Part shown: one piece after another, positions 5,566-54,511 of the stretch
Layout of the letters: every line of letters begins with the position of its first letter
How positions within the stretch are numbered: the first letter of the stretch is position 1
Virus record (IMG/VR): IMGVR_UViG_3300034279_001861
Location: 111,161 to 175,160 of that record
DNA length: 64,000 bases
Origin: a virus
Strand: one strand, 5' to 3'
The notes under the pieces: model-generated
What the model saw: the letters and a program-made list of their open reading frames with translations, nothing else
Told to the model about the DNA's origin: nothing
Database searches by the model: none
Made by a program: the position numbers and the translations under genes

Positions 5566-6350
5566 TTACCGCAGCATTCACTGAATGCGGTAAGCTTGTG
5601 TCCTCTGCATTTGCCAGGGCTTGGAACCTGCCTCACCGTGAGGGCTGCATTACACGCCGCAACTCTGCAAAGATCCTCACTGATCTTTACGCTTGCGGCA
5701 GGTCGGTCATGTAACTTGACCGGTGGTATAGAGTGAGCTATGCATTTTTCTACCTGTATGCTCAGGCTCTTAGCGTAGAAGTACGGGCAAGTTTCCGCTC
5801 TGCCTAGCGATCCGTTCTTCCACGGATTATTACTGGCCCCTTCGCGGTAGCTTTGCGTCGGACTCTCTCCGCGTGACTTGTCGTTACTGATCAAGTCCAC
5901 TGCTGACGTTTTTTAGTGTCGTCAGTACCACGTTACCTTTGGTTTAGCGAGAAGGTATTTCTCGGAACGTTTACTGCTTTTTAGCTCCGCCTTGAGATTG
6001 TTATAGACAACGCAAGACGCCAACATAAAAGCCCACAGAAATTTAGGGCTAGTTGTCGGAACAGTTTTCACTTTCTGGGGAATGCCCTTTCGGACTTTAG
6101 TTCAACCCCGAAACCGTGCCACGTGTACCTTTACACGCCACACAGTAATGCTTTACAAGACCCATAAAGAGAAGATCTTGGTAAGGACGACACAAGTGCT
6201 AGCCGCCCGCAAATATCGCAAAGACAAAAGACGCTGTTACCCTCAGCTTGATTTTTACATCAAGCGAGTGCGGCCTTTGCGATACTCGACTTAAGCCAGT
6301 GAAAATACGTTTGCTTTTGTATTTCGACCGACTTGCAAACGATAAGTCGT
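5566..6350 (-). ncRNA. Large structured noncoding RNA candidate (GOLLD/ROOL-like)
   Basis: About 785 bases without a credible gene, tiled by at least 19 local helices on the minus strand. Examples: CGACTT/AAGTCG (6329-6349), a 10-bp TATCGCAAAG/CTTTGCGATA enclosing a further hairpin (6214-6284), and ACGGTTT/AAACTGT enclosing GGGG/CCCC and a GAAA-capped stem (6061-6117). Others are CTGACG/CGTCAG (5903-5925), GCCGCAA/TTGCGGC enclosing AAAGATC/GATCTTT (5656-5699), and TTACCGCA/TGCGGTAA (5566-5593). G-U wobble pairs and the GNRA loop fit only the minus strand. Phages are known to carry giant ornate RNAs of this size (GOLLD, ROOL); assignment to either is inference. Ends are approximate. Confidence 0.6.
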
Positions 6351-6390
6351 CTGCATATTATTATGACTCGTTTTTAACGAAAATTAAGCA

Positions 6391-6687
6391 CTAAAAAGTA
6401 TACTCTACAACCTTACCATTTTGGGCTACTCTCAGTCTAACCTTATCAGCACTAAGCATTTCTTTAAGTCGCTTCTTTTTCTCCACACCCATGTTGATGA
6501 TAGATTGCTTGATCGTCTGCATGGTCTGCACACGTCTGGCTGCTGCCTTGTTACAAGGTTTACAACTTTTCTTCGCAACCGGTGCGGCACCGCTTGCGAG
6601 GAACGGAAACTCTCGTACGAAGTTAGGATTTGTAGCGAGCGTGAGCAACACCGTATCTTCAAGTGTAAGTAGCTTGTGTGTAGCCAT
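6391..6687 (-). CDS. Hypothetical basic protein with CKPC motif
   Basis: 98 aa, lysine/arginine-rich with a single CKPC motif in the middle and a predicted helical core. The start is coupled to the gene before it by TAATG. It is the last gene before the structured RNA. Might bind nucleic acid or metal, but this is a guess from charge only. Confidence 0.65.
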   Translation of the reverse strand: MATHKLLTLEDTVLLTLATNPNFVREFPFLASGAAPVAKKSCKPCNKAAARRVQTMQTIKQSIINMGVEKKKRLKEMLSADKVRLRVAQNGKVVEYTF

Positions 6688-7124
6688 TAGTTTGAGCTCG
6701 AGGTAGATGTGTCAGGAGCATCCGGTATCCAAACGACTTGTGTTGTTTTCAGTGTATCTAGACGGTTCATTGCTTTGATCAAAATTTCGACTTCGTGCTT
6801 GATCTCATCCCATATGGCCTGTGCCTGGGCCGACGAGGCAACGTCTAGCTCGACATAACTAAGACGGTAGTACGGCCAACCTTGATCTGGGTCCGGGGCA
6901 CCAGCAGGATAGTCGGCTAACTGGGGAGGTCCAGCTACCGCTTCAAATACGTCTGTACTTAGATCGGTGTACGGGCTAGGTGTGTTGTGTCTGTAGATAA
7001 AAACATTTCCGTCTATATCGTTGCCCTCGAAGTCTGTGACATCTATACGTAAACGATAAGCACCGTAGTTTGGAAAAACAACAGTGCCTGTTTCTGCTTT
7101 TGTAAGTTGTATTCGTCTAGCCAT
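6687..7124 (-). CDS. Hypothetical beta-rich protein, probable virion component
   Basis: 145 aa, with alternating strands at the N terminus (VVFPNYGAYRLRIDV), a Pro/Tyr-rich middle, a C-terminal helix and a Ser/Thr tail. GAGG precedes the ATG. Not recognised. Position at the end of the appendage/glycosyltransferase block suggests a virion or accessory role. Confidence 0.6.
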   Translation of the reverse strand: MARRIQLTKAETGTVVFPNYGAYRLRIDVTDFEGNDIDGNVFIYRHNTPSPYTDLSTDVFEAVAGPPQLADYPAGAPDPDQGWPYYRLSYVELDVASSAQAQAIWDEIKHEVEILIKAMNRLDTLKTTQVVWIPDAPDTSTSSSN

Positions 7125-7139
7125 TGCCTCAGCCTCGGT

Positions 7140-7754
7140 TTAGATATCGAGCAACGATTTCATTATCTCTAGTTTTGGTTTTTTTGCAATATTGCAGGCT
7201 TGCGACGTACAGTGAATTAGTTGGTCGTACACCGGGTATTCTGCCACTGTAAATTTTTTGGTAAACGCAATAAGCCCAGTCGCCAGCATAATCATATCGG
7301 AAGTGTGGGGTCTATCGTGGATTTGAATAAAGTGCTCATACTGTGCGGCTAAGTTACAGAATTCGCGACAAACTCGCAGGTAGTTTTCTGCGGAGCCTGA
7401 CACGGTGCAAGGTACGTGACCGCAGTGGACGACGAGTTCCGAGGATTCAAAAGCATCTGATTGTGTCAGCCCGGTGTTCACGACATCATAGTCTATCATG
7501 ACCCCACCTCCAATTTCAGCCATTGCCAACCATCGCATATAGCAATGATAGTCGTACTTGCCTGGATTTACAGTTGGTAGCCTGGAGACAGTATCGACAT
7601 ATTGTTGGTAGAAAGTAGATCTTCTTGCAACAGCTTCGCCTATAACTTCTAATTGCCAACCATTACGCTCCCAAGATTGGCGACAAACTTCTATTTGGTC
7701 TGGTTGGCCTGTAAGTTGGCTTACAGGTTCGTAGTAGGTAAAAACACGTTTCAT
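7140..7754 (-). CDS. DXD glycosyltransferase (GT32-like)
   Basis: 204 aa. The motif RWLAMAEIGGGVMIDYDVV (residues 74-92) matches the sugar-binding DXD region of GT32/capsular-polysaccharide transferases, where Asp88 and Asp90 would hold a metal and the nucleotide sugar. The fold is short for the family and the C-terminal acceptor domain is minimal. It follows directly after the two-domain glycosyltransferase at 7757-9739, so both may modify the same substrate, plausibly a fibre protein encoded just upstream. Substrate unknown. Confidence 0.75.
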   Translation of the reverse strand: MKRVFTYYEPVSQLTGQPDQIEVCRQSWERNGWQLEVIGEAVARRSTFYQQYVDTVSRLPTVNPGKYDYHCYMRWLAMAEIGGGVMIDYDVVNTGLTQSDAFESSELVVHCGHVPCTVSGSAENYLRVCREFCNLAAQYEHFIQIHDRPHTSDMIMLATGLIAFTKKFTVAEYPVYDQLIHCTSQACNIAKKPKLEIMKSLLDI

Positions 7755-7756
7755 AG

Positions 7757-9739
7757 CTATCTCTTAATCTGTGATATATCGAAGTCAGGATCCCACGGAA
7801 AACGCTGGCTTGCTCCGCGTCTACCGCCTTGTTCTCGAGAAGGACAAGCTATCAAACTTTTATTCTTGTTCCATTGTTTTATACCAAAACCGGCTTGGTG
7901 TACTTGTTCGCCAATTGTGATGTCTCCGCCGTTGTGTAGTAGCCTACAGTCAGGCACATCGGCCTGTCGCATAGCCTCCGTTTCCAGAGCCCAGCACCAG
8001 CCTACAGCAAAGTCGATCACAGAACCATTGGAAACTTCTTCTTTCCCCGTCTTTGTACGTAAGTGCTTGCCCTTATGCCACATAGCATCCTTAAACCACT
8101 TGTCAGGACGATGCCCTGCCCCCGCATAAACGCTGAGATCGTGATACATAATATTACCATAAAGCCTAAATCCGCTTTTATGATTAGCTACTATTGTTGT
8201 ACAAAGATCTCCCAACCAAGCGGGGTTAGCTACCCAAGTGTCATCGTCAAACCACATTAAATACTTAGTAGTAATAGGATGAGATTCGTCATAAAACATT
8301 TGACGCATTACGGGATACTTGAAGTCGTTAGTATCGTGCTTGTATATCTTAGTAACTGGCACTGTCTTTAGATAATCGAGTGTAGCTTTCGGTACTTGGT
8401 TTGTAGCAACTCTAAGATCTAATTGGTCGTTCGGTACTGTTCTAAGTATTCCGTTTATACATCTTGTAGCGAGCTGCGTATGCTGTCCGTAGCAAAGTAC
8501 AAAAACTGTAATCTTTCCGCCTAGTATCGGATCGCTTAAACCTGGTACAGCCTTAAATATACTTCCAACTTGATTTGCTTTTAGTTCTAACGGATGAACT
8601 TTTTGATGTGTTTTTTGTGTTACATTAGGTCTAGATGGTTCTCTAACCATTTTTACATCGTGCGGCTTATGCTCTACGAGCTCTACCGCAGGTATCACAA
8701 TGTTATGTCTTACCTCTTCCTGTGCGGTAGTAGGTTGCAACACTCCAGATTGATAGTAAGACATGACCGCGGCTACAACTTCGTCAGAACTAAGCATATC
8801 GTGACAGCCTGCTACCGCGTGCGTAGTCGCGGGCTTAACTGGTTTCTGACATAGCAGATGTATTTTGCGACTGCGATCAGTCGGATCAAGCGGCACTACT
8901 CTATTTTTCCAGCAACCGTAGCTCTCGCAGCACGGTAGCTTTCCAACGGTGTGCAAGTACTTGTGCGGTATAGTTACTGCTTCTGCGTTAGCTCCGAACG
9001 CCTGATACTCGTCAGTGTAAGCTTCAAACCAAGGTTCTTCTCTACCGCCCGCGTACACCACGCACGGTTTATCGAATGCGGCTGCGATATGCATAGCACC
9101 TGTAATCCCGCATATAACGCCGTCGGAGTGCAGTATTATGTTCCACAGGTCTCTTACATTATCTGTCTGACCTACAAGGTTAAGCGTACGCTCGAGCGGC
9201 GGGTGTATATGATTGGTTTGAGTAGCACCAACCTGAACGCAATGTATGTTATCGTTTAACAGTTTATCTACGACTTCTTGCATGCGGTGAGAATGCCAGT
9301 GTTTAACAGTAGCGTCTAACTTACCGCCTGATACCACAACCCAATATCTACCTGTCAGCCTTCTAACCCTTTCATCGTCTGACAGGTGTAAGTCAGCTTT
9401 AGGTTTTGTCACGGGTACTTTTATACCGGTTTTGACTTCGAAATCATGATGGTACCAAGCCAGTATATGTCTTTTGTTGCCCTGTGAATCGATACCGTGC
9501 TGTTTAATTGCTTTACCCCAATCAAGGGTGACTAGCTTGGCTTTTGACCTTTGGCTTTCAGAAAACTTTACAACATACGGATTGTTCCACCATACGTTAG
9601 TAAAGTTGGTACTAACCTCAGTCTCGTACTTGCCCGGATAGGCCGCATGCAGATCACGTATAAGTGCCGTAAAAAGAACAGTGTCGCCCAGAGCGTGCGG
9701 GTGACCGTGCCTAACTATTAGTGGAATTTTGCCTTGCAT
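7757..9739 (-). CDS. Two-domain glycosyltransferase: GT9-like plus GT-A (GT2-like)
   Basis: About 660 aa. The N-terminal ~300 residues look like GT9 (heptosyltransferase type): GDTVLFTALIRDL at the start and GITGAMHIAAAFDKPCV in the donor site. A Cys-rich linker and low-homology stretch follow. The C-terminal ~250 residues form a GT-A domain with WFDDDTW as metal/nucleotide motif and a late NGGDITIGEQ acceptor-loop segment. The start is uncertain: a 12-base tandem duplication repeats the start codon, giving MQGKMQGK; only the second ATG has AAGG at good spacing. The two domains may add successive sugars. Confidence 0.8.
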   Translation of the reverse strand: MQGKIPLIVRHGHPHALGDTVLFTALIRDLHAAYPGKYETEVSTNFTNVWWNNPYVVKFSESQRSKAKLVTLDWGKAIKQHGIDSQGNKRHILAWYHHDFEVKTGIKVPVTKPKADLHLSDDERVRRLTGRYWVVVSGGKLDATVKHWHSHRMQEVVDKLLNDNIHCVQVGATQTNHIHPPLERTLNLVGQTDNVRDLWNIILHSDGVICGITGAMHIAAAFDKPCVVYAGGREEPWFEAYTDEYQAFGANAEAVTIPHKYLHTVGKLPCCESYGCWKNRVVPLDPTDRSRKIHLLCQKPVKPATTHAVAGCHDMLSSDEVVAAVMSYYQSGVLQPTTAQEEVRHNIVIPAVELVEHKPHDVKMVREPSRPNVTQKTHQKVHPLELKANQVGSIFKAVPGLSDPILGGKITVFVLCYGQHTQLATRCINGILRTVPNDQLDLRVATNQVPKATLDYLKTVPVTKIYKHDTNDFKYPVMRQMFYDESHPITTKYLMWFDDDTWVANPAWLGDLCTTIVANHKSGFRLYGNIMYHDLSVYAGAGHRPDKWFKDAMWHKGKHLRTKTGKEEVSNGSVIDFAVGWCWALETEAMRQADVPDCRLLHNGGDITIGEQVHQAGFGIKQWNKNKSLIACPSREQGGRRGASQRFPWDPDFDISQIKR

Positions 9740-10705: not shown

Positions 10706-11112
10706 GCTACGACCTGTACTGTAAATGTGTCTATAAGTGCGTTATTTGCATTGTTACGTACTTCTACTGTTTGCGGACTTACCTTAGCCGTCAAGGTGCT
10801 GTAACAAGTAAACTTAACCCACTGACCAGCTGTTACTGCGAACGTGCTGCCAGGGCTGTCGGCTACCTGTATCCATGGCGGCGTTGTTGGTTGCCCGTTT
10901 GGGTTTAAAGTTGCTTCAGAAGCTGCTACTTGATAGAAAAGTTGAATATTGGACGGGCTTGTCAAGTTTACAACTTTAAGTGTTACACCGTATGTAAGTA
11001 ATTTACTGGTGATAGTGCCGCTTGTTGTGCCTAAACTCCACTGTATAGCTTCCCAGTCTGGGTTAACAACGCTTGGTGGTTGTACGTTAAACAGACCAGC
11101 AAATGGTAACAT
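10702..11112 (-). CDS. Beta-sandwich virion protein, fibre-associated
   Basis: 136 aa from [10 protein letters not shown]. The start is set by a TAATG overlap with the stop of the collagen-like fibre gene. The sequence is almost all beta strand with Ser/Thr/Val-rich repeats and no charged helices, like an Ig-like fold. Coupling to the fibre gene suggests a fibre tip, chaperone or associated receptor-binding module. Family not identified. Confidence 0.6.
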   Translation of the reverse strand: MLPFAGLFNVQPPSVVNPDWEAIQWSLGTTSGTITSKLLTYGVTLKVVNLTSPSNIQLFYQVAASEATLNPNGQPTTPPWIQVADSPGSTFAVTAGQWVKFTCYSTLTAKVSPQTVEVRNNANNALIDTFTVQVVA

Positions 11113-13256
11113 TATATTGTTGTATCTCCAGCTAGTACAAAGTTGTTTGCACTTCTTTGGATCAGAGACACGACTGCCCATCTACCTGCTGTTTTAGTGT
11201 GACTTTGTCTGTTGTTTATGGTTGTACCCGACGCATTAAAAGTAACTTGACCTGTACCTGACTGTATCACAGTAACCGTAAAACCAACTGGTAAGCCTGT
11301 AGGTACCGTTATCGTTATAGCGTTACTGCATTCCAAGACTACACCGTTATCACCGGCTCCAAGTGTTCGCGATGCGTTAGCCTCGGTTACAATTATACCT
11401 GTACCTGTAACATACTTATTGGAAGTGATACCACCGGTGCTAAGCATATTAGTGCTAGCGTTGTAACTAAGAGCTGGCGACGTTGTATCGATGTTAGGCG
11501 TTTGATTACTCCCGCCCGCCGCCACAAATACAACGTAAAACAAAGAATCTGCGTCTGTGGCTGTTGCGTTTATAGCTGTGCTAGGACCCGTCGCACCGGT
11601 AGAGCCAGTTACTCCTGTGGCTCCTGTAGTCCCGGCAGCTCCGTTAGCACCTGTTGGTCCGGTAGCACCTACCGTCCCACTTATGCCTGTGGCACCTTGC
11701 GAACCTGTAGCCTGTAACGATAAGACAACTTGGTCTGACGCGGTGTAAGTTCCGTTTGTAACAATACTCTCTACACTAAAATCAAAATAGGTTGCTTCTT
11801 CAGTTACAGCGGTAATTCGATACAAGCCAAAGTTAGTCACGTTGTTTATCAACCACGTCTTTATAATGTCGCTAGCTTTAAACGTGTCTAACCATGCCGT
11901 CATATCTATGTCATTGTAATTTGACTTTTCAACGTAAATATGCTCGACAGCATCCAATACTGCGCTATCAAAATAAACTTGACCGTGGGAAGTTAACGCC
12001 ATTATCTTGGCAGATTCTATCTCAGTGTCTGCGTAGAAATAGCTGTCGTCACCTGTGTGTTTTAAAGGAAATACAGGGGCCTCTGGTGAAAGGTTGCTGT
12101 TAAACTCCCAGCTCATCAGAAAATCATTTTCGTCGGGTGTAGGCGGGCCGGACGGGCCGGGTGGTCCTGTTGGCCCTGTTGGGCCTGTTGGTCCCGAAGG
12201 CCCGGTTGAACCTTCGCAACAAGGCCCTTGTGGCCCAACGGCACCTTGCGGACCTGCAGGACCTATAGGTCCTTGTGGGCCTACGTCACCCTGAGGTCCT
12301 TGATAGCCTTGAGGTCCCCGATAGCCTTGAGGTCCCCGATAGCCTTGAGGTCCGCGGTATCCCTGCGGCCCGCGATAACCGTAAGGTCCACGGTATCCCT
12401 GCGGACCGCGGTACCCGGTTGCTCCCCGACCACCTAGCGGTCCTTGAGGCCCTGTTGGGCCTTGGTTACCGTCTGGGCCTGGATTGCCGTCTGGGCCTGG
12501 ATTACCGTCTGGGCCTGGGTTGCCATCTGGGCCTGGATTACCGTCTGGACCGCTAGGTCCGGCTGGGCCTTGTGGTCCTTCTGGCCCGCTTGGTCCCGCG
12601 GGTCCGGTGGGTCCGGCTGGGCCTTGTGGTCCGTTTGGTCCTACTGGTCCTTGTGGTCCTTCTGGCCCAACGGGTCCTTCCGGTCCGTCAGGCCCTTGCG
12701 GTCCGGCTGGGCCTTGTGGTCCTTCCGGACCTTCTGGACCTTCGGGTCCTTGCGGCCCCTGTGGGCCTTCTGGTCCTGTTGGACCCTGTGGACCTTGTGG
12801 GCCTAACTGCGGGCTGGGTATTCCAAGATTTAAATCAATAGAGAACGTACAATCGCCAGATTTTGTTACGTCAAGCGAGGCAAACGGAGCTCCGCCGGGG
12901 CCTACGGTACTTACAGTGGCACTTCCGCTAATTTCCGGGCAAGGAAAAGCAATATCCAGCGTAAAGGTGTAATCGCAGCATGCACCTTTAGTTATTATGA
13001 GACTAGCGTTTTCTCCACCAATTGGCACTACGGTGGTATCAACATCGCCCGCACCTATTACAGGACAAATAGGATCGGGATCTAGCATCGGAACCGGCAG
13101 CGACGGGCAATCGAAAATATCAGTCGGTGCCTGCGGTACCTGTGGATTAAGCAGCCAATTACCGCCAGGTATAGGAAAAATACAAGGCACATCGCATTTG
13201 ATAACATCAAATACAGGTGACTGAGGTCCTTGTGGACACGGAGTCGTCGGTGCCAT
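11112..13256 (-). CDS. Collagen-like tail or head fibre protein (GPx type)
   Basis: 714 aa. Residues 1-150 form a Cys/Pro-rich N-terminal domain, probably the attachment part. Residues ~152-375 are uninterrupted Gly-X-Y triplets, mostly GPQ, GPE, GPD and GYR, predicted to form a collagen triple helix. Residues ~376-515 form a globular insert. A short second collagen run (GATG type, ~515-556) leads to a C-terminal beta domain that resembles the end of the protein at 54572-55153. Collagen-like regions are known in phage fibres as rigid trimer stalks. Glycosyltransferases lie 1.4-4 kb downstream. Exact place on the virion unknown. Confidence 0.88.
12130..12803 (-). repeat. Tandem collagen-triplet DNA repeat
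   Basis: Imperfect 9- and 18-base repeats coding Gly-Pro-X. Three sub-blocks are visible: YRGPQG-type 18-mers near 12290-12420, GPDGNP-type 18-mers near 12470-12550, and GPxGPx elsewhere. Such arrays change length by slippage. Confidence 0.85.
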
Positions 13257-21228: not shown

Positions 21229-21822
21229 CTAGCTCAAAGTGGTTTCCCATTCGATTCCGATCTGACTAGACGGCAGCTTTTGTTGCTGGTCAGCCGGTTC
21301 ATAGTACCAACTGCTGTATATCAAGTCTTGAGTTGCGTCAGTATCGTCTACAATCGCAACTAAACTACCGCCGAAAACAACCGAATTGGCCGCAGCTGAG
21401 AACGATTTACCGTGAACACCGACCGAGCCGCTACTTCTTGCAAAGTACGACATCTTGTTATTTATAAGACCGTTGCCTTCGGAACTGAGCTCAGCCGCTG
21501 TAACTGGAACACGTAGATAATCTCGGTTAGAGCTTAACGCCAAACTGTTATAGTAGTTTACATCGCGAGTTCGATCAAAAACTGGAGGGCTCACTGGGTC
21601 ACCCGGATTGTCGGTGTTTTCGAATTCCAAATACATACCACTAATGCGATAACGGCTATCGCCGCTAGTCAACAGCTTCGCGACAATAGTCGCCCATTGG
21701 TATACGATCAAGTTGTGCTTAAACTCGGTTACCGGCTTCCAGATTAGCTCAGTTGCGATAAGATCTTCGGCGGTATATGCGCGAACACGTCCTGATACCT
21801 TTATTGCCGTGGCTTCTATCAT
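21229..21822 (-). CDS. Tail or baseplate protein, unassigned
   Basis: 197 aa from MIEATAIKVSGRV, coupled by TAATG to the gene before it; GGAAGG lies in the last codons of that gene. Beta-rich with a FARSSGSVGVHG loop. Its position directly after the gpI-like baseplate protein suggests a fibre-attachment protein. No family recognised. Confidence 0.6.
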   Translation of the reverse strand: MIEATAIKVSGRVRAYTAEDLIATELIWKPVTEFKHNLIVYQWATIVAKLLTSGDSRYRISGMYLEFENTDNPGDPVSPPVFDRTRDVNYYNSLALSSNRDYLRVPVTAAELSSEGNGLINNKMSYFARSSGSVGVHGKSFSAAANSVVFGGSLVAIVDDTDATQDLIYSSWYYEPADQQQKLPSSQIGIEWETTLS

Positions 21823-23381
21823 TAAATGCACCTTCCACCTATAGTTTTAACTTTTGAAGTTTCTGTTACGTAAACGTCTGAGTTTAACGACTCTGAGACA
21901 GTTAAGCACTGGAAACTTTCAAAACTTTCAGAGTAACCTGGAGCTATTTCCGTACCTGCAGTTTCCATGACAATCGGGCTATCAGCGTAAACCAAGTCTA
22001 CCAGCAGTAGCATCAGGGTATGCGGCGGCATAATTTTTCTAAGCTGGGTTACCGGAACAAATTCTAGCCGATTTTGCAATTTGCTTCCAGGTTTAACTTT
22101 GACAATGAAAAGGTTAAACTTTAACAGATTGTCGATCAAAAACTTTAGAGGGTTGATCTCCACGGGAAGCGAAGACGCTGTTGGTTGACCGATCGGGTTT
22201 TCACGTACATCCAGTAGCATGGCAAGTGTCTCGTTTTTTGCAATGCCGCTCGTATGCACGTCGTGCCAGAACTTGGTTACATCGTTCGGAAATCCGCCTA
22301 TTTCCCAGGTGACCTTCGTATAACCATCCTCGGCTAATTCCACATTTAGCGGAACATTTTTGTTAGAAAACACAAGGCCGTCGTAGAAGCCTTTGGTCAG
22401 CATGTTGGTATCTATTGTCAAAGCATCTACGCCGCAATTGATGTCAAACCCTCTGTTGAATTCAACAACCTCGAAAGTGTCGGTGAGTGCCTGTCCCGCG
22501 TAAACAGTTTGACCGATTGAAACTACTGCGTTTGCTGTAGCTGGAAACGTGTAAACGTGTGCGTCTGTGATAATCTGCAAACCGTTTGTGTCGTTAGCTA
22601 CTAACTCCACGATTTCTTCGCCGTTAATTACTAACGGAACACCAAACGCTGCGGCTAAAGCTTGTTGCTGCGATCTTACGCTTGTACCTTCGTTAAAACT
22701 ATCGAGTATCGCATTTACAAACGACTTGTAACCAGGGCTAGAACGCATAGGCAGTGAAAGAACGTAACCGAATTGATCGTAAATGTAGTCCCAATCCCAT
22801 TTGCTGCGATAGAGCCACAGCGTTATTTCTCTGTCGACAATTTCGCCAACGTTGTTTAACACTTCTCTCTTAGGGATATCTGGGTTATCAAACGGATTGC
22901 TACGTAAAACTACAGTGCTGTCTTCCAGCCAGAAATCAATACCGTTAATTAGTTGAACAGCTGAATCTGTAATTCTTTCAAAGATAACGCCACACTCTTT
23001 TAGTTCTTTTGGCTTGCTTACTGCGTAATAATTAGAGTCTGGTATCTGCCCGTAAAACAATTCAGCCTGACTCTTGTAACTGTACTGAGTACCCGTTTTG
23101 TACACGGCCAGTAGACTTGTGTCCGTATTCAGCTCGGATTGCCTTACTTTAATCGCATACCAGTCGTCTTGATGATAAACAGGCACGTTTTTACGTGAAA
23201 CGCTGTTCACAAGCTCTAAGAATTGAGAATTAGCCTGTTGTGAAAGCTGACCGACTACTGAGCCTATGTCTTTAACCAGTGCGTTACCCTGGTACAAAGT
23301 AGCCCAGAAGCTACCTAGCAGCCCTAGCAGCGAATCCGGCTTGTCGAAATCATTCTGCGGGTACCGGTAAAGTTTCGTCAT
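21822..23381 (-). CDS. Putative baseplate/tail-fibre attachment protein (gpI-like position)
   Basis: 519 aa. The N-terminal third has the helical pattern (LLGLLGSFWATLYQGNALVKDIG) seen in proteins that connect the baseplate wedge to fibres in large myophages. The middle has a strand-rich region, and the C terminus is Ser/Glu-rich. In P2-like tails the J gene is followed by I and then fibres; here J (27142-28809) is separated from this gene by the protease/lipoprotein cassette. The functional call rests mostly on position. Confidence 0.55.
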   Translation of the reverse strand: MTKLYRYPQNDFDKPDSLLGLLGSFWATLYQGNALVKDIGSVVGQLSQQANSQFLELVNSVSRKNVPVYHQDDWYAIKVRQSELNTDTSLLAVYKTGTQYSYKSQAELFYGQIPDSNYYAVSKPKELKECGVIFERITDSAVQLINGIDFWLEDSTVVLRSNPFDNPDIPKREVLNNVGEIVDREITLWLYRSKWDWDYIYDQFGYVLSLPMRSSPGYKSFVNAILDSFNEGTSVRSQQQALAAAFGVPLVINGEEIVELVANDTNGLQIITDAHVYTFPATANAVVSIGQTVYAGQALTDTFEVVEFNRGFDINCGVDALTIDTNMLTKGFYDGLVFSNKNVPLNVELAEDGYTKVTWEIGGFPNDVTKFWHDVHTSGIAKNETLAMLLDVRENPIGQPTASSLPVEINPLKFLIDNLLKFNLFIVKVKPGSKLQNRLEFVPVTQLRKIMPPHTLMLLLVDLVYADSPIVMETAGTEIAPGYSESFESFQCLTVSESLNSDVYVTETSKVKTIGGRCI

Positions 23382-23992: not shown

Positions 23993-24576
23993 TATTGGGG
24001 ACAGACCTGACCTGGTGGGCAGGTGCTATAGCTGCGAGCTCGCCGAAATATAGTTGTAGGTTGTCTTGGTACGTAGTACTGAGCTGGAGCTACAACCGAA
24101 GATGACCTAGCTGGAGCACCGTAAGCGGAATAACCGTTATGTAGATTATCGTGCATAGTCTGTAGCTCTTGCATAGTTTTACCGTCTACATTCAAGCCGT
24201 GTACGCTTCTCAGGTGATTTGCCAGTTCGACAAGCGTATAATTCCAGTTGCCCTCAACATTCCAGCTAGATCCCGGCATCCGTGTTACGCCTTTTTCCAC
24301 AGCCGTAACGGCAGCAACTTCCGTTTTAACGCTTTCAAGCGTTGACTTTTTCTCTTTAGCCTTAGCTTGAAGCTCAGTAACAGCCTGCTCTATGCGGTCA
24401 AGTGTGGACCGGTAACCTTGCAACTCTGTCATCGTCTCAGCGTGAGACTTTTGTACCGAGTCTGCGACTGCTAGGTTAAACCTTTCAAGCATGTCATCGT
24501 TAAGTGGTTTTGACTGTGGTACGCAACCTACAAGACAAAGCAACGCTAAAACTAAAAAGCTATTCAGCAATTTCAT
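23992..24576 (-). CDS. Lipoprotein with coiled coil
   Basis: 194 aa from MKLLNSFLVL, preceded by GAGG at 9 bases. The signal ends in a lipobox (LVGC, Cys18), so the protein should be lipid-anchored in the cell envelope. Residues ~25-90 are a heptad-rich helix. A C-terminal region has GNWNYTLVELANHL and LHNGY, then a Pro/Tyr/Arg-rich tail with CPPGQVC. The start lies inside the protease gene. It might serve as a spanin-like or host-modification lipoprotein; that is inference. Confidence 0.75.
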   Translation of the reverse strand: MKLLNSFLVLALLCLVGCVPQSKPLNDDMLERFNLAVADSVQKSHAETMTELQGYRSTLDRIEQAVTELQAKAKEKKSTLESVKTEVAAVTAVEKGVTRMPGSSWNVEGNWNYTLVELANHLRSVHGLNVDGKTMQELQTMHDNLHNGYSAYGAPARSSSVVAPAQYYVPRQPTTIFRRARSYSTCPPGQVCPQ

Positions 24577-25465
24577 CGTCAAAGTCCTCAAGCTCGGAGT
24601 TATCGTCCAGTTCGGCCCAGTTTTCAGTTACCTCTTTTTCGATTTCCGGTTCTGTTTGTTTTTCTTCCGGCTTCATGGTGATCTTAAAATATGGGGAGTT
24701 TTGATACCAGTCAACAGGAACCGGTTCTTTTGACCCCATAAGACCTATTGCCGTAGTCCAGCTGTGCGACAACATCTGTTGCCAAGCTGTAGGTGTAATA
24801 AGATACGTGCCATCGCCGTGTGAGTTCATTGCACGCAAATCACCGTCACGCGTGTAACCTAGAATGCACATAGCATGCCCGCCTCTACCGGGAATGAACC
24901 TCCGTATCACGCGATTAGACGGAATGGTCGAATTACCGTAAGCTATACCAAAATTGATAGCACCTCCACCACCGATAAAATTCAACGTTTCTTCGTGATC
25001 TCTAGTACACTGCCACGCAGACAAGGCTTTATAAGGTGCGCCTGCCTTATAGTTGGCTTCACTCAAAATCTTGTTGCGAGCGTCGCGGCCTGGATACGAA
25101 GTTGGATAACCAGTCATGCTTTCAGGCGGACAACCAGTTTCCAAGGCTAGTTTAGCTCCGCCGGATATCGTTGAACCGTTATCGGACCCAAGCAGCCCGT
25201 CGATTCTTTGCGTAGCTAGGTAGGCAAATATACGAGATAACTGCACCTTTATGCCGGTAACAAGAGCACAACGCTCAAGCACAGACGAAAGTGAATTGCC
25301 CTGGCAACTTCCAATTTGCAGTTGATTTTCGTCGCGGTGCCAATCTAGCGTAACCTCTGCAGGACGGCTGAAAACTCGCCAGGCAGCGTTATGCATTGGA
25401 AGAATAGGAAGCGATTTTAGAAAATTTCGGTCTTCTCGTTCGTAGTTGTAACTGTTACCTAGCAT
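24560..25465 (-). CDS. Papain-like (C1-type) cysteine protease
   Basis: 301 aa from MLGNSYNYER, set by TAATG coupling to the previous gene. Catalytic features: Q-I-G-S-C-Q-G-N (Cys54), RGGHAMCILGY (His197) and MNSHGDG (Asn214), in the papain order. There is no signal peptide and no evident inhibitory pro-domain; the C-terminal ~50 residues are strongly acidic. It could act on virion proteins or host cell-surface peptides. It lies in a cassette with a second protease, a lipoprotein and membrane proteins. Confidence 0.82.
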   Translation of the reverse strand: MLGNSYNYEREDRNFLKSLPILPMHNAAWRVFSRPAEVTLDWHRDENQLQIGSCQGNSLSSVLERCALVTGIKVQLSRIFAYLATQRIDGLLGSDNGSTISGGAKLALETGCPPESMTGYPTSYPGRDARNKILSEANYKAGAPYKALSAWQCTRDHEETLNFIGGGGAINFGIAYGNSTIPSNRVIRRFIPGRGGHAMCILGYTRDGDLRAMNSHGDGTYLITPTAWQQMLSHSWTTAIGLMGSKEPVPVDWYQNSPYFKITMKPEEKQTEPEIEKEVTENWAELDDNSELEDFDDEIAE

Positions 25466-25851
25466 TATTTCGTGTAACTCCTCAGCAAGGATTCGTGAGC
25501 TTCTTTCGACCAACCGCCTTTCGTCTTAAAATACTCAGCCTCAGACTTTGCTAGCTTTTCAAAAGCTAATTTTCTAGCTGGTTCCTGCCCGGCTGCTTGA
25601 AACTCCCACGCCGCCTTTTCTGTGTCGAGCTCACCGGAAGCGAGCTTGTCCGCAGTAGTAATCTGGTGAACACGCCATAGCTGTTCATATGTTTTGAAAG
25701 CGTCGGCGGCTAAATCTGCTTTTAGTTGCGAGGACCTAGTTGTAAACCAATTTGTCGGAACTAAAAGAAAAACGCCCAGCAAACCGCAGATCAAAAGAGA
25801 CCACGGAAAGCCAGGCGTAGCTTTGTTATCTGCTGTCCATGCAGTTGACAT
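25465..25851 (-). CDS. Single-pass membrane protein
   Basis: 128 aa. A hydrophobic stretch at residues 15-36 (WSLLICGLLGVFLLV core) follows a short polar start, then a long helical charged region. This fits an N-in bitopic protein with a periplasmic or exterior coiled tail. Translationally coupled to the papain-like protease. Confidence 0.65.
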   Translation of the reverse strand: MSTAWTADNKATPGFPWSLLICGLLGVFLLVPTNWFTTRSSQLKADLAADAFKTYEQLWRVHQITTADKLASGELDTEKAAWEFQAAGQEPARKLAFEKLAKSEAEYFKTKGGWSKEAHESLLRSYTK

Positions 25852-26217: not shown

Positions 26218-27141
26218 TCAATTGGTAACAATTAACTTTTGACCTGGCTTCAATTTAACTTTTATCGTGTCCTTGGTTTGGCTTACGTTAGACACTAACT
26301 TTGCCGGGTTTTGGTTTAAACCGTAAAGCTTTTGGATTCTAGGAATGTCGTCAACTGGCTGCGGGGTAGCCACAAACGGGTTGTAGTAAGGAGCCATCAA
26401 CGCTTGCTTTTTGTCGGAATGTGCCAACCCCAACAAGTGACCAAACTCATGACACGCTACGTTTGATAACAGTATACCTCGTTCTCCTTTGTTCGCCACC
26501 CACGTTTCGTCTAAATCAAATCGCATCAAAAGCTTTTCGTTTTTGCCTCTAGGCATGTAAGCCCAGGCCAAGGTGCCGCCTTTACCGTCGAATTGATGCG
26601 TGACACCTTTACCTGTAGTGATAACGATATCGGCAAGTTTAGCATCTTTAGCCTCAGTGATGTTTAAACCGCAAGCATCATCCCAAGCCTTAAAAGCTTC
26701 TTGGAAAATACGTTTTTGTTCAGTTTTTGAAACTTTGCCTGTCACGTAATTGGCAATAGTATACGTAAGTCCAGTTTTGTTCCACCTGTCACGTTTTTCA
26801 GCTACAACCTCAGCTGCGCGTAAAAATTCAACGTGTTTCTCGTTAGACTTGTCCAATTTGTCAGGGCACCCGCATCTAGGCGTATGCATAGCCTTAAGCG
26901 TCTCCTCGGTCAGCACGCCGTCAGCTTTTATGCCGAAATAACGTTGAAAAAGCTTAATTCCAGCGTGAATGTCGTCTACGCTTATATTTTTCAGCAGTTC
27001 AACGGTCAAGTAGCCAAAAAACACAAGATAGTCAGTGGCAAACGTGATTGCTTGCGGTGTTTGCTTGTTTTTCGTTGCAGCTAGGTTGGATTTTGCAAGA
27101 ATACGTACAACTTCGGCTTTACCACTTGTTTTCTTTGGCAT
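26218..27141 (-). CDS. Matrix-metalloproteinase homologue with peptidoglycan-binding prodomain
   Basis: 307 aa, family M10A by motif. Residues ~30-86 form a PG-binding-1/MMP prodomain fold (GIKLFQRYFGIKADGVLTEET). Residues 88-94, PRCGCPD, are the cysteine-switch motif that keeps animal and plant MMPs latent through Cys90 binding the active-site zinc. The catalytic domain has HEFGHLLGLAH (His231, Glu232, His235, His241) and the Met-turn ALMAPYY (Met249), plus DDIPRIQKLYG at its end. There is no signal peptide or hemopexin domain. Between the baseplate J gene and membrane genes, it may be a virion or lysis protease. Confidence 0.9.
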   Translation of the reverse strand: MPKKTSGKAEVVRILAKSNLAATKNKQTPQAITFATDYLVFFGYLTVELLKNISVDDIHAGIKLFQRYFGIKADGVLTEETLKAMHTPRCGCPDKLDKSNEKHVEFLRAAEVVAEKRDRWNKTGLTYTIANYVTGKVSKTEQKRIFQEAFKAWDDACGLNITEAKDAKLADIVITTGKGVTHQFDGKGGTLAWAYMPRGKNEKLLMRFDLDETWVANKGERGILLSNVACHEFGHLLGLAHSDKKQALMAPYYNPFVATPQPVDDIPRIQKLYGLNQNPAKLVSNVSQTKDTIKVKLKPGQKLIVTN

Positions 27142-28809
27142 TTAGGTTGCAACCGGTATGGAAGAAACAATGTTCAGATTCACGTTTGACGTTTCGGCGA
27201 AAAACTGAACTGTCTTAGAAGTTACCATTTTTTCAGGTAGTTCTGGAATTAGCAAGGCGTCATCACTTCTGACGTACTTAATTGTACCGTCCGGCATGCG
27301 AATTCGACCTAGGATATCAAGTTCAGTTACGTTTAGTCTGCCCTGCAAGAAATTATGAACTGTATCGACAATCGCCGAACCAGGTAAAACACCTTGGAAA
27401 TCTATCGCGTTAATTTCATCAATAATCGCTGCACGAATAGGATCTAGCAAGGGGGCTACGTCGTCCGCAGCTTTGTTTATAGTGAGCGTGACGCTGACAA
27501 AACAAGGAACAGGTGCTTTAATCAGAGCGTCAGCTCCGTAATGTCTGATGTCCCGGCTAGAAACTAAATCCTGCAGTTCTTTGATGTAAGGTACACCGGT
27601 TATCTCGTAAATGTAATCGGCAGCCTGGCCTACAGCCAAGTCTGCAACGGGAGTAACCGTGTCTTCGAATCGGACTATAGCGTTTTGAAAAGCCGTATAA
27701 GCCCCTTCTTCAACTGTGGCGATGTCTGGAAGAAAACCAGCTCCGGTTAAATCGATAGACCGAGTATCGGAAACAATGTTAAAACCTGACACAACAAAAG
27801 CAGCATCAGATCTACGAATCTTGTCTATCTCATAAAAACCAGGTAACACTGAAGCGGGTACAGTAAACTGCCACTGGCTTGTACCTGTAACCGTTGACAC
27901 GCTAATGCAAGTAGCTGACGCGACAGCCGTTTTCCTTTGTATTGCAGACTGCCCTCTGATATACCAATCAACCCTACCGCCAGTAAGCGTCGGAAAAATT
28001 GTGTGCTTATCTCGCAGCATTTCCGGGTCACCACAACCAACTATAGACTGGTTTGTAATCGAAGCAAATTGCGGCAAGCTCCGAAGGTAGGCCCGCATGT
28101 TTGTTCGGTTAGATAAAGCTTTTGCTGAAATACCCAGCTGCAATTCGTTCAGCAGTTCTTCGTTTGTTTCGGTATTCGTTCCGTCTTCAAACGAAGAAGT
28201 CGCGTAGCTTGTCGCGTAATTGACAATTGACCGATTAGGTACAATCAGGTCGCCTGCGTTGAGTTTGCGGTCAGCACCAATATCCGCGGCTTCTACTTCA
28301 ATCGTAAAAGCGTAATTACCGTTGCTAAGCGGTGTTAGCAGTCGGTCGTTTTCGCTTAAAATCTGAGCAGATGCAATACGGCCTACAAATGTTGCTGTTG
28401 TTAGATATTGAAAACCATTGGCTTCGAAAATACTGTTTTGAGGTATAGTGAGCGGTCTTAGTTCTGAGAGCTCTATGGTAACCGGGCCAACAGCTTTTGT
28501 TCCGGGCTTACGTACAATACCCCAGTTAGAAAGCACCTCGCTGACGACTGTATCATCGGCCAACGTTGGATCTTCCTGAATTTTTTGAAGGCTTCTGGCG
28601 GACTGATAGCGTTCTAAATTGGCACGAATAGCCGCGTCTAATACAGCGTGATAGTAAGCCAATGTATCTTTGAAAACGCCACGACGTAAATCCAATGCCG
28701 GATTAAGCTCTTGTAGCTGCGAGACAAGCCTGTCAAGCGTCTGCTGAACATCTGCGGAGTCAAGTTGAGTGAGATCAGCTATTTCAAAGTCAGAGTAAGT
28801 TAAAGTCAT
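27142..28809 (-). CDS. Baseplate J-like protein
   Basis: 555 aa. The order of elements fits the baseplate J/gp6-like family: an N-terminal helical part (LDLRRGVFKDTLAYYHAVLDAAIRA), a central strand region with RPLTIPQNSIFEANGFQY, then a C-terminal part with VTLTINKAADD and AIIDEINAIDF. Such proteins form the baseplate wedge that links the hub to fibres. It follows the gp25-like gene by two bases, a common pairing. Confidence 0.82.
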   Translation of the reverse strand: MTLTYSDFEIADLTQLDSADVQQTLDRLVSQLQELNPALDLRRGVFKDTLAYYHAVLDAAIRANLERYQSARSLQKIQEDPTLADDTVVSEVLSNWGIVRKPGTKAVGPVTIELSELRPLTIPQNSIFEANGFQYLTTATFVGRIASAQILSENDRLLTPLSNGNYAFTIEVEAADIGADRKLNAGDLIVPNRSIVNYATSYATSSFEDGTNTETNEELLNELQLGISAKALSNRTNMRAYLRSLPQFASITNQSIVGCGDPEMLRDKHTIFPTLTGGRVDWYIRGQSAIQRKTAVASATCISVSTVTGTSQWQFTVPASVLPGFYEIDKIRRSDAAFVVSGFNIVSDTRSIDLTGAGFLPDIATVEEGAYTAFQNAIVRFEDTVTPVADLAVGQAADYIYEITGVPYIKELQDLVSSRDIRHYGADALIKAPVPCFVSVTLTINKAADDVAPLLDPIRAAIIDEINAIDFQGVLPGSAIVDTVHNFLQGRLNVTELDILGRIRMPDGTIKYVRSDDALLIPELPEKMVTSKTVQFFAETSNVNLNIVSSIPVAT

Positions 28810-29759: not shown

Positions 29760-30497
29760 CTATTGCGATATAAAAGGTGATAGGGCTTGTTCTTGATCTA
29801 GCAACTTTTGTATTTTCATTTTACGTTGAGTTATTGCCGCCGGAGTCCTATTCAGTGCTTTTGCGATGTCCAAGTTAGACATTTTTCGACGGTTATTCAT
29901 ACCCAGCGTCATTTCTAGAATTTGCTGGTCCGTAGGCTCCAGGTCTTGATACACAATTTGTAACCATAGATCCTCAGCTCCCGTGTCACCAGGAAGCCTA
30001 CCCGCTATACCGCCAGAGTTGGGGTCAAGGCTCTCGGCCTGACCTGTACTGAAACCCGGCTGATACTTCCGAATCTTAGCAATTCTAGGGATAGATATTC
30101 GCATAAAGTCTGACAATTCTGCATCTGTGGGTTCTCGACCTATTTCGTCAGCAAGTTCTTGTGTTGCCGCTCTTAGCTTCTGACTCTCGAGTATCACCCG
30201 TTCAGGTGCGTTGATGACCTGCCCTTGCTGTCTGGATATTCGTCGCAAACCTTGCATATTAGTTACGATATGCGATCGAAGTCTGGACCGCTTTGGATCG
30301 TACTTATTGGCAGCTTCCAAAGCCAGAAGCCGAGCCCTGCTGCGTAAAAGCGGGCTGTCGTTACCGTAAGCCTGCAAACCCTGGTTAATCACCGGGTCTA
30401 TAGTCTTCAGAAAAGCTGCGTTGCCCTCCGGTGTTTTATTTGCTTGCCAGGTTTCATAAGCTGGCCGAAACTCATCTTCTAAATAATCGGTTGGCAT
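29760..30497 (-). CDS. Sigma-70-family-like transcription factor
   Basis: 245 aa. Residues ~60-100 (YDPKRSRLRSHIVTNMQGL) recall region 2. LADEIGREPTDAELSDFM is typical of region 3, and LEPTDQQILEMTLG with SNLDIAKALNRTPAAITQRK is a region 4 helix-turn-helix. Such a protein could steer host polymerase to late promoters. It is unusual that it sits inside the baseplate operon. The promoter-melting part of region 2 is poorly conserved, so another DNA-binding role is possible. Start: ATG at 30497, next to a GTG at 30500. Confidence 0.78.
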   Translation of the reverse strand: MPTDYLEDEFRPAYETWQANKTPEGNAAFLKTIDPVINQGLQAYGNDSPLLRSRARLLALEAANKYDPKRSRLRSHIVTNMQGLRRISRQQGQVINAPERVILESQKLRAATQELADEIGREPTDAELSDFMRISIPRIAKIRKYQPGFSTGQAESLDPNSGGIAGRLPGDTGAEDLWLQIVYQDLEPTDQQILEMTLGMNNRRKMSNLDIAKALNRTPAAITQRKMKIQKLLDQEQALSPFISQ

Positions 30498-30512
30498 CAC
30501 GATAGTTTACTT

Positions 30513-48391: not shown

Positions 48392-49480
48392 CTAGACTTC
48401 GCCAAGCTTGTACCAACCTTCTTTGCTGATATAGACATTCATCACGTCCGAAAAGTATTTGTTGTATTTAGGTGCAATCTTTTCTAAAGCAAACTGTTCA
48501 CCAAATTTACGACAATCTTCCGGTTTAATTTGATCAATAGTTTTGACAGCATTTACAAAATCGGCAAAAGTACGGCAGCGATAACCCGTTAAACCGTGAG
48601 GATTATTTTCCGTAAAAGCCCCCCAGTCCGTGGTGATTGTCGGGGTACCGGAAAGCAAGTTTTCTATTTGCACGCCGCCGAAAGGCTCAATATATTGGCT
48701 GGCTACAAAGCTAGCCTTTGCGTCTCGCATGAGCTTTTTTCGGGTTTCAACATCTGCGTAACCTACGTACTCTACGCACGACGGTAGTTTGTAGTTGTCG
48801 TCTTTTTGGCCTGCAATAACTAACTTTATACCTAGCTTTTCGGCAACTTGTATCGCAATATGTACACCTTTGCCTTCGTAAACACGCCCAAGATACAAGA
48901 AGTAGTCCTGCTTTTTGTCACTGTATTCGAACTCGGACAAATCGAAGTAGTTAGGAATAACTACCTCGTACCAATCCTGATTACAAGTTTTTACACCTTT
49001 AATTCCGCAGTAAGCGTGATAAATGGCGTAAGATTCGAAAACTTTCCATCTGGCCCAGTGACCATCGGCGTATCCTATGCCTGGTTCTACACATATTAAA
49101 TCAGGATGAGCGTCGCAAACTGGTCGTACACCAGACCCCCAAAACGGTAGGATAAAGTCTCTTGGTTGTTTTCGTTTAGTTATTTCAGCAATAGCGCGGC
49201 TGTAAAAGGTTTGATACGCGTGATCGTTGACATCAAACTTAAAAAAATGCTTACGCCAATCGTGACTTCCATAGGCCTGAGCTAGATCTGCGTTTGTTGT
49301 AACCGTAACGTGCTCGTTGCAGTCAAGCTGCGAATCTTCATGACCGTAATGAATGATGTGATGCCCGTGCATTCGCATCATCTTGGCAAACTTAACTACT
49401 TTTTGAGTATAGGCACACGCCACATAGTCTCGGTTAGAAACAGTGTGCGGTAGACCTAGTATGTGAAAACGAAAAGACAT
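48392..49480 (-). CDS. GT4-family glycosyltransferase
   Basis: 362 aa from [14 protein letters not shown] lies 7 bases before the ATG, while the longer open frame would overlap the previous gene. GT-B fold marks: [16 protein letters not shown] at the start of the C-terminal domain, then the donor-site [18 protein letters not shown], with the E-x7-E spacing of GT4 transferases. N-terminal histidine-rich acceptor region. It lies between a virion protein and the neck genes, suggesting it modifies virion proteins or host glycans. Confidence 0.85.
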
Positions 49481-49490
49481 AAAACATCCT

Positions 49491-49958
49491 CTACAATAGC
49501 GCAGGTAAAATCGCTGTCTTTTTGCGTACGTCTTCGACCGTCGTCTCATTTGCCACACTCGCCGGGAACGATACTGGAGCAGCAGCACTAGTCGGCTGCC
49601 CTGCGATCCTTGTGACGTTTGCATCTGTGTTTCTGTTCTCAATCGAAAATGTCCGAAGTATCGTTCTTGCCAGGTCTTTCCCATCGACTATCCCTGCCGT
49701 GAATACGACGTCGTAGTCTTTACCGCCCTCATATACCGCATCGGAAGTGTCGATCACCAGTTCATGGAACCCAGCTTTCCCATCATAATCTACGGCGGGT
49801 TGGGTTACTCCGGTAGTGAATTCTGTTGTCGAATCTTTGTAAATCGCGACTGTTGGATTTACTGTTGGGGTAGCAGGCAAAATAGCTTGACTGAACGTGT
49901 TGAATTTGACACGGATCTGTTGGCCTTTTTTGAAATCTCCAATGTATTTGCCTGACAT
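49491..49958 (-). CDS. Phage virion protein of the 'SIENR' type
   Basis: 155 aa. The pattern [38 protein letters not shown], then [21 protein letters not shown] matches a widespread small phage protein I know only as hypothetical/structural, probably an Ig-like decoration or connector piece. The C terminus is Ala-rich. Confidence 0.65.
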
Positions 49959-52033: not shown

Positions 52034-53260
52034 TTATATTATAGTCTCAGTCACGCTTGTCAGCTGATTGGCACTATAAATAAAAGTTTTTCGGTAGACG
52101 CGACTAGGGCTGCCGTGCGTGTAATCTAATTGCGTAAGTAGCCCGGCACTATATGTAAATATTTTTGACGAACCGTCGGAGTAAGTTATAGTTGAAACGT
52201 TACCGTTGACGTCATAAGTAATCGCAGGTGCCGAGCCGATTATCTGATTATAACGAACCTGCCGCAACTCGGGTAGCGACAAAGTTTGAGACGCTGCAAA
52301 CGATAAAAGACCTGAAACATTACCAGTAGCGCCCGTGGCACCTGCAACCCCAGTTGCACCTTGGCTTCCTGTAGCACCAGTTGCACCCTGAACACCTTGG
52401 CTTCCTGTGGCACCTGTAGCACCCTGAACACCCTGGCTTCCTGTGGCACCTGTAGCACCCTGAACACCCTGGCTTCCCGTTGCACCTTGGCTTCCTGTGG
52501 CACCTGTAGCACCCTGAACACCCTGGCTTCCCGTTGCACCTTGGCTTCCTGTAGCACCAGTTGCACCCTGAACACCTTGGCTTCCTGTAGCACCAGTTGC
52601 ACCCTGAACACCCTGGCTTCCCGTTGCGCCTTGGCTTCCTGTAGCACCAGTTGCACCCTGAACACCTTGACTACCTGTAGCCCCGGTTAGACCTTGGCTT
52701 CCTGTAGCACCTTGACTACCTGTAGCCCCGGTTAGACCTTGACTACCTGTAGCCCCGGTTAGACCTTGGCTTCCTGTAGCACCTTGACTACCTGTAGCCC
52801 CGGTTAGACCTTGACTACCTGTAGCCCCGGTTAGACCTTGGCTTCCTGTGACACCAGTTGCACCCTGAACACCTTGGCTTCCCGTTGCACCTGTAGCACC
52901 CTGAACACCTTGGCTTCCCGTTGCACCTGTAGCCCCTGCTACACCCTGCGTACCCTGACTACCAGTTGCACCTTGGCTTCCTGTAGCCCCTGTAATACCG
53001 GTAGATCCTGTTATACCCTGACTACCAGTTGCACCAGTTGCACCCTGAACACCTTGGCTTCCTGTGGCACCTTGACTACCTGTAGCCCCGGTAGCACCGG
53101 TCAAACCCGTAGCTCCAGTCGCTCCGGCAGCATCTCCAATATAATCACGAACATCTTCGCCGTTAGTAAACGTAAGCAGCTGCCTACCAAATGCATCAGT
53201 GGTTAACTCGTCAATTTTAGTTAACTGATCTGAATAAGGCTGTGGTAGATAGTTCGTCAT
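52034..53260 (-). CDS. Collagen-like fibre protein (GATGxQG type)
   Basis: 408 aa. Residues 1-45 form an N-terminal anchor. Residues ~46-309 are Gly-X-Y triplets made mainly of GAT, GSQ, GVQ and GLT, unlike the Pro-rich collagen at 11112-13256. Residues ~310-408 form a cap with [15 protein letters not shown] and later repeats that look like short YD/RHS-type strands. Thr-rich bacterial and viral collagens can be glycosylated; a GT2-type enzyme is encoded right before it. Probably a head or tail fibre. Confidence 0.85.
52334..53125 (-). repeat. Tandem repeat coding for collagen triplets (18/27-base units)
   Basis: Nearly exact repeats of units such as GGxGTxCAGGGTGC and CAAGGTGCAACGGG, in changing order, over about 790 bases. 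Prone to length change and to assembly collapse. Confidence 0.85.
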
Positions 53261-54496: not shown

Positions 54497-54511
54497 GATT
54501 TCCTTTACCAA

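Follow-up and report, generated by a model that had tools for sequence, protein, structure and literature searches.

Matrix metalloproteinases (MMPs) that act in animal tissue are textbook zymogens, controlled through a prodomain and a cysteine switch. Karilysin, the bacterial MMP of Tannerella forsythia, uses an aspartate switch. Its propeptide is short and has no cysteine switch. For phages, literature searches for MMPs turned up only the Listeria prophage metzincin Mtz/Tim. This phage-associated protease has the extended HExxHxxGxxH motif and is tied to weakening of the host wall. It differs from the enzyme described here in its Sec signal and its separate TIMP-like lipoprotein partner, and the term cysteine switch is absent from the paper (PMC8235301). 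The word "phage" does not occur in a recent survey of MMP gene transfer (PMC12587646).

The stretch of DNA analysed here (the window; 64,000 nucleotides) corresponds to positions 111161-175160 of a virus record of 175,160 bases, with one copy of a proMMP gene. Its features are listed in Table 1. An initial annotation, made from the letters, had described the ORF as a phage-encoded MMP with an intact switch. Its coordinates are exact, the strand, which it did not give, is minus, and the switch, zinc-binding and Met-turn motifs lie where it placed them. The assignment to M10 is also far beyond chance. Peptidase_M10 matches residues 119-274 at 125.5 bits (E 2.4e-36; Pfam gathering cut-off, 24 bits), and phmmer finds proMMP-1 in the PDB at 6.9e-30, with both prodomain and switch inside the alignment. 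His231, Glu232, His235, His241 and Met249 are invariant across 24 M10 sequences, which gives the HExxHxxGxxH motif and the Met-turn methionine. As in M10A pro-MMPs, the prodomain carries the PRCGxPD switch, here PRCGCPD. The N-terminal domain had been called a prodomain of peptidoglycan-binding type; PG_binding_1 does match residues 35-85 (30.3 bits, E 4.9e-7), but the structure model superposes this region on proMMP prodomains, making it an ordinary MMP prodomain. The ORF is thus a full pro-matrixin composed of prodomain, switch and catalytic domain. Its fast-evolving parts are the C-terminal tail together with residues 1-29. Because open, syntenic homologues occur in independent contigs, a sequencing or chimera artefact is excluded. 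Bacterial contamination was also rejected, since many contigs have the gene surrounded by phage tail genes and exact-pattern scans of 84,980 bacterial and archaeal genomes gave no close relative.

Table 1. Features of the proMMP gene and its surroundings in the window.
Feature	Coordinates	Strand	Basis or remark
proMMP gene (phage matrixin)	26218..27141	minus	307 aa; PF00413 2.4e-36, PF01471 4.9e-7
Prodomain, residues 30-94	26860..27054	minus	superposition on proMMP prodomains; dN/dS 0.07-0.11
Cysteine switch PRCGCPD, residues 88-94 (Cys90, second Cys92)	26860..26880	minus	Cys90 21/21, Cys92 18/21
Catalytic domain, residues 118-274	26320..26790	minus	Pfam and PDB matches
Zinc-binding HEFGHLLGLAH, residues 231-241	26419..26451	minus	ligands and glutamate invariant, 24 M10 sequences
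Met-turn ALMAPYY, residues 247-253	26383..26403	minus	M249 invariant
Short C-terminal tail, residues 275-307 and stop	26218..26319	minus	two strands predicted (model)
Baseplate J-like protein, directly upstream of MMP gene	27142..28809	minus	PF04865 2.3e-10, phrog_6 2.2e-14
122-aa protein, one N-terminal hydrophobic segment	25863..26231	minus	hydropathy; conserved in cassette
128-aa protein, one N-terminal hydrophobic segment	25465..25851	minus	hydropathy
Papain-like cysteine protease (GSCQG ... GGHAM ... NSHGDG)	24560..25513	minus	profile match to Xylella cysteine protease 3ois, 6.7e-17
Lipoprotein-like protein, lipobox LVGC, 199 aa	23992..24591	minus	sequence and hydropathy; weak Rz-spanin match 0.041
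519-aa tail-operon protein	21822..23381	minus	directly follows baseplate J in cassette-free relatives
714-aa protein, 65 Gly-X-Y triplets in one run	11112..13256	minus	downstream, same strand; possible partner or substrate
Collagen-like gene, run of 90 Gly-X-Y triplets	52034-53260	minus	second in window

Structure prediction, one of the checks proposed in the initial annotation, yielded a model in the MMP pro-form (Z 26-27, 2.0-2.1 Å). The AlphaFold2 model was built from 24 aligned sequences and has a pLDDT of 84 and a pTM of 0.81, with a pLDDT of 93 in the switch block, residues 81-90; resting on a deeper alignment, it supersedes a first model of pLDDT 74. Prodomain and catalytic domain superpose as a single piece, with proMMP-like packing, on proMMP-9 (Z 27.4, 2.1 Å, 218 residues), proMMP-3 (Z 26.9, 2.0 Å, 219 residues), proMMP-10 (Z 26.8, 2.1 Å, 221 residues) and proMMP-1 (Z 26.5, 2.0 Å, 213 residues). 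Cys90 is thereby predicted to sit where the switch cysteine of proMMP-1, -3 and -9 sits, on the zinc.

Conservation of the switch was followed in the 21 phage M10 proteins that have a PRCG-type segment (20 distinct sequences, the window's included). Both Cys90 and Arg89 are present in all 21. The second cysteine, Cys92, forms a CXC motif in 18 (CGC, or CAC in L018, where L numbers denote records of the comparison) and is replaced by Phe in L014 and by Val in L020 and L042. The same position is Leu, Gln or Val, and never Cys, in the alignment's four switch-bearing matrixins of bacterial or bacterial-like type. Switch-bearing phage homologues occupy several starred branches of the MMP tree, and the first copy in L044 keeps PRCGCPD although its helical prodomain is absent. 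The dN/dS of the prodomain is 0.07-0.09 for the window against L001 and L003, and 0.11 for L010/L012. Against L001 and L003 its pN is 0.08-0.09, compared with a similar 0.10 for the catalytic domain. These sequence comparisons show purifying selection on the prodomain. Sequence and model together give the latency reading good support, and it is highly probable that the phage proMMP is in fact latent. The original proposal of latency is strengthened by the conserved switch and the pro-form model, but its appeal to a eukaryotic MMP logic was too narrow, as matrixins of Paenibacillus and Streptomyces show.

The presence of the switch is associated with the absence of an export signal. None of the 21 switch-bearing phage M10s has a signal or transmembrane segment, as judged by hydropathy and not by a trained predictor, while all four phage M10s lacking a canonical switch have one (L023, L024, L042 copy 1 and L044 copy 2). 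In this small, hydropathy-based set of related sequences, the switch accompanies the M10 enzymes that stay in the cytosol, which is the direction expected if it protects the producing cell. Two records hold both forms close together (L042, genes 6264-7610 and 7962-8732; L044, genes 7857-8429 and 8991-9629), and in each pair one gene has a switch and no signal and the other a signal and no canonical switch. L023:9470-10555 and L024:9608-10495 encode another type of phage M10, which is membrane-anchored, lacks prodomain and switch, and adjoins a CxxCH gene.

The MMP gene directly follows the baseplate J gene in 12 records (the window, L001-L003, L008-L014 and L059) and lies in other neighbourhoods in nine more. 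Six relatives (L057, L060, L061, L062, L065 and L066) have the 519-aa tail gene immediately after J. Since these flanking genes abut where the MMP is absent, the MMP belongs to an accessory cassette that has been inserted there. The window's cassette also holds two small membrane proteins, the papain-like protease, the lipoprotein-like gene and two small genes. A sigma-factor-like protein is encoded among the baseplate genes (29760-30500, minus; phrog_351, 1e-9), and its position is conserved in those baseplate relatives that were examined. Elsewhere in the window, an 874-aa ORF (59311-61935, minus) has an internal LAGLIDADG-like domain (8.9e-7) and is possibly an intein or homing insert.

In L013, L014, L059, L018 and L020 the gene next after the MMP is a different one, for a secreted protein with a single CxxCH. 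In a first set of records, itself rich in M10, relatives of this protein were encoded at most about 2.6 kb from an M10 gene in nine of nine. L101 and an uncultured phage of 595 kb carry the CxxCH gene after a papain-like gene, with no MMP seen nearby. The family, encoded immediately downstream of or close to a protease gene of either the MMP or the papain-like type, has no Pfam or NCBIfam name; members include L013:10975-12744, L059:8620-10194, L018:11138-13054, L020:11119-12834, L084:5629-7464 and L101:5602-7455. Protease types thus seem to alternate within one kind of cassette. The secreted CxxCH proteins of the relatives and their small, Arg-rich secreted proteins recall the Planctomycetes, which may be the hosts. 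L088:12016-12297 and L090:9677-9994, from the same phage genome, are nearly pure Ala-Thr repeat ORFs and probably simple-sequence DNA.

The best explanation, and a probable one, is that the enzyme is a zymogen, latent in the cytosol, which leaves with or inside the virion and then cleaves proteins beyond the cell that made it. Lacking an export signal, the proMMP would be synthesised in the host cytosol. There the catalytic zinc, bound by His231, His235 and His241, would be capped by Cys90 of PRCGCPD, and the enzyme would stay off while the cell lives. The proMMP would then exit the cell alongside, or within, the tail or baseplate. Outside, it would be switched on once the Cys-Zn bond is lost, whether by cleavage of the prodomain, by self-cleavage or by oxidation, and the active MMP would cleave its protein substrates there, most likely on the surface of the next host; envelope proteins at exit are the alternative target. 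That activity is released only outside the cell is likely. An association of the MMP with the virion, suggested by the operon position, has an even chance of being correct, and surface proteins of the next host are a possible but doubtful target. A possible reason for the device is that the protease is made inside a cell where its activity is not tolerated. Counting against this explanation are the cassette neighbours with transmembrane segments or a lipobox, as in a lysis or host-surface cassette, the nine records with the MMP in other neighbourhoods, and the L044 switch without a helical prodomain.

In a variant of this mechanism, the zymogen is armed by redox change. The reducing cytosol would keep Cys90 on the zinc, and a Cys90-Cys92 disulfide formed outside the cell would uncap the zinc without cleavage, so that a tail-borne protease would be armed by its exit. 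A potential of -167 mV is quoted for the free CGC disulfide (Woycechowsky and Raines 2003, cited in PMC4316792). This falls in the range where cytosol and outside differ and would fit redox arming of the CGC motif. Activation of proMMP-9 by oxidants is among the reports in PMC9405048. The three phage homologues lacking Cys92 count against the variant, which is rather unlikely.

The neighbouring genes suggest another role. The MMP, the two small membrane proteins, the papain-like protease and the lipoprotein could jointly open the envelope late in infection, with the switch delaying the MMP until the membrane is breached. The transmembrane segments and lipobox of these neighbours, the weak Rz-spanin match (0.041) and the insertion of the cassette as a block between two tail genes agree with such a role, for which there is a precedent in the prophage metzincin and lipoprotein partner that sensitise Listeria to phage lysis (PMC8235301). 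None of the cassette genes was found to encode a muralytic domain, however, and cassette content varies widely between phages while the MMP stays. A lysis cassette, delayed switch included, is an unlikely reading.

The initial annotation had suggested that the papain-like protease encoded nearby arms the MMP by cutting off its prodomain. The two genes share one cassette, which is kept in eight records, and all eight records holding this papain-like family are MMP-positive. The family is missing from 15 of the 23 M10-positive records scanned, among them L009 with another kind of papain-like gene, and related cassettes without an MMP also contain genes of the papain-like type. The two genes are thus not always found together, and the alternation of protease types in the cassette argues against an obligate cascade from papain-like protease to MMP. 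The suggestion is not borne out, and such a cascade is improbable.

The collagen-like genes of Table 1, the first of them about 14 kb downstream of the MMP gene, raise the question of whether the MMP trims the phage's own Gly-X-Y fibres. Collagen-like genes above the Pfam cut-off are present in 11 of 12 records with a tail-operon MMP, versus none of 10 baseplate relatives without one. On the baseplate J tree, though, each trait changes only twice, giving one or two independent pairs, which is not significant, and shared descent explains the association. Moreover, L013 has the MMP and no collagen, and collagen genes above the cut-off are absent from all nine MMP phages outside the tail-operon group. 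Fibre processing is very improbable; the collagen-like proteins are a lead as MMP substrates. Near the second collagen-like gene lie two glycosyltransferase genes (48392-49684 and 53267-54511). The Pfam name PG_binding_1 would allow the N-terminal domain to be a wall-binding targeting module with latency a relic, but the switch cysteine invariant in 21 proteins, the strong purifying selection on the prodomain and the pro-form superposition make this extremely improbable.

Relatives of the proMMP occur in about 20 other viral contigs of uncultured phages; three relatives from IMG/VR scans have 81-82% identity, and further ones grade down to about 35-40%. The M10 of L080, from an M10 scan of baseplate relatives, is the same gene as in L059. 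Among 50,697 records of annotated phages there was a single match, weak and switch-less. No close relative came from two scans that covered 84,980 genomes of bacteria and archaea with exact peptide patterns, which would miss distant ones. A phylogeny, also proposed in the initial annotation, separates the phage M10s from five bacterial or bacterial-like matrixins, the support being moderate (88/86), and puts the four phage M10s without a switch on the phage side as well. Capture of an animal gene is unnecessary, since switch-bearing bacterial matrixins exist; with few outgroups in the tree, the donor is not placeable. As cysteine-switch MMPs exist in bacteria, the phage gene is not an animal gene as such.

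The latency device of animal MMPs is thus carried by bacterial viruses, fixed in a branch of large phages and located in a tail operon. MMP evolution gains a phage branch that the gene transfer survey leaves unmentioned. Biochemistry gains a small MMP that lacks the structural-zinc ligands and has a possible redox switch.

The phage protein shares with animal proMMPs (MMP-1, -3, -9 and -10; MEROPS M10A) the prodomain fold, PRCGxPD, HExxHxxGxxH, the Met-turn and the pro-form. Unlike them, it has no signal peptide, hemopexin domain or structural-zinc ligands. By hydropathy, no hydrophobic core precedes the prodomain, and no hemopexin-like domain, a part of most animal-type MMPs, is matched by Pfam in the 33 residues beyond the catalytic domain. 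The animal-type structural zinc site (HxD ... LAH ... xHF) is lost in all 21 phage proteins, where LAH is LAW (LAY in L020) and xHF is xRF, xKF or xEF, and the S-loop is shortened. The phage protein also differs in having Cys as the x of PRCGxPD, ALMAP for ALMYP, and Asn before VACHE. This Asn, four residues before the first zinc histidine, is found in 20 of the 21 and corresponds to Arg214 of MMP-1, the floor of S1'. Its conservation suggests one specificity common to the phage enzymes.

Other viral and phage enzymes resemble the protein in its catalytic part. The MMPs of insect viruses (granulovirus, ascovirus, entomopoxvirus and iridovirus) are virus-borne M10 enzymes and structural matches in BFVD, but these viruses infect eukaryotes, and the matches do not imply that the phage proteins descend from them. 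The Lactobacillus phage 3-521 matrixin has an M10-like catalytic fold but no PRCG switch, and the Maribacter phage Colly_1 matrixin, also M10-like in its catalytic fold, is a remote match, by fold only. Karilysin has the bacterial MMP catalytic fold (Z 19.6 to the model). The bacterial matrixins from Paenibacillus and from Streptomyces plasmids have a PG_binding-type prodomain, PRCG(L/V)PD or DRCGQPD, an M10 domain and no signal segment, as do the phage proteins. In contrast to the phage proteins, the bacterial switch matrixins retain the histidines of LAH/LGH and VHF and lie outside the phage branch (88/86), and the two from Paenibacillus have long C-terminal repeat domains. The phage matrixins are a real, undescribed phage branch of this known enzyme family.
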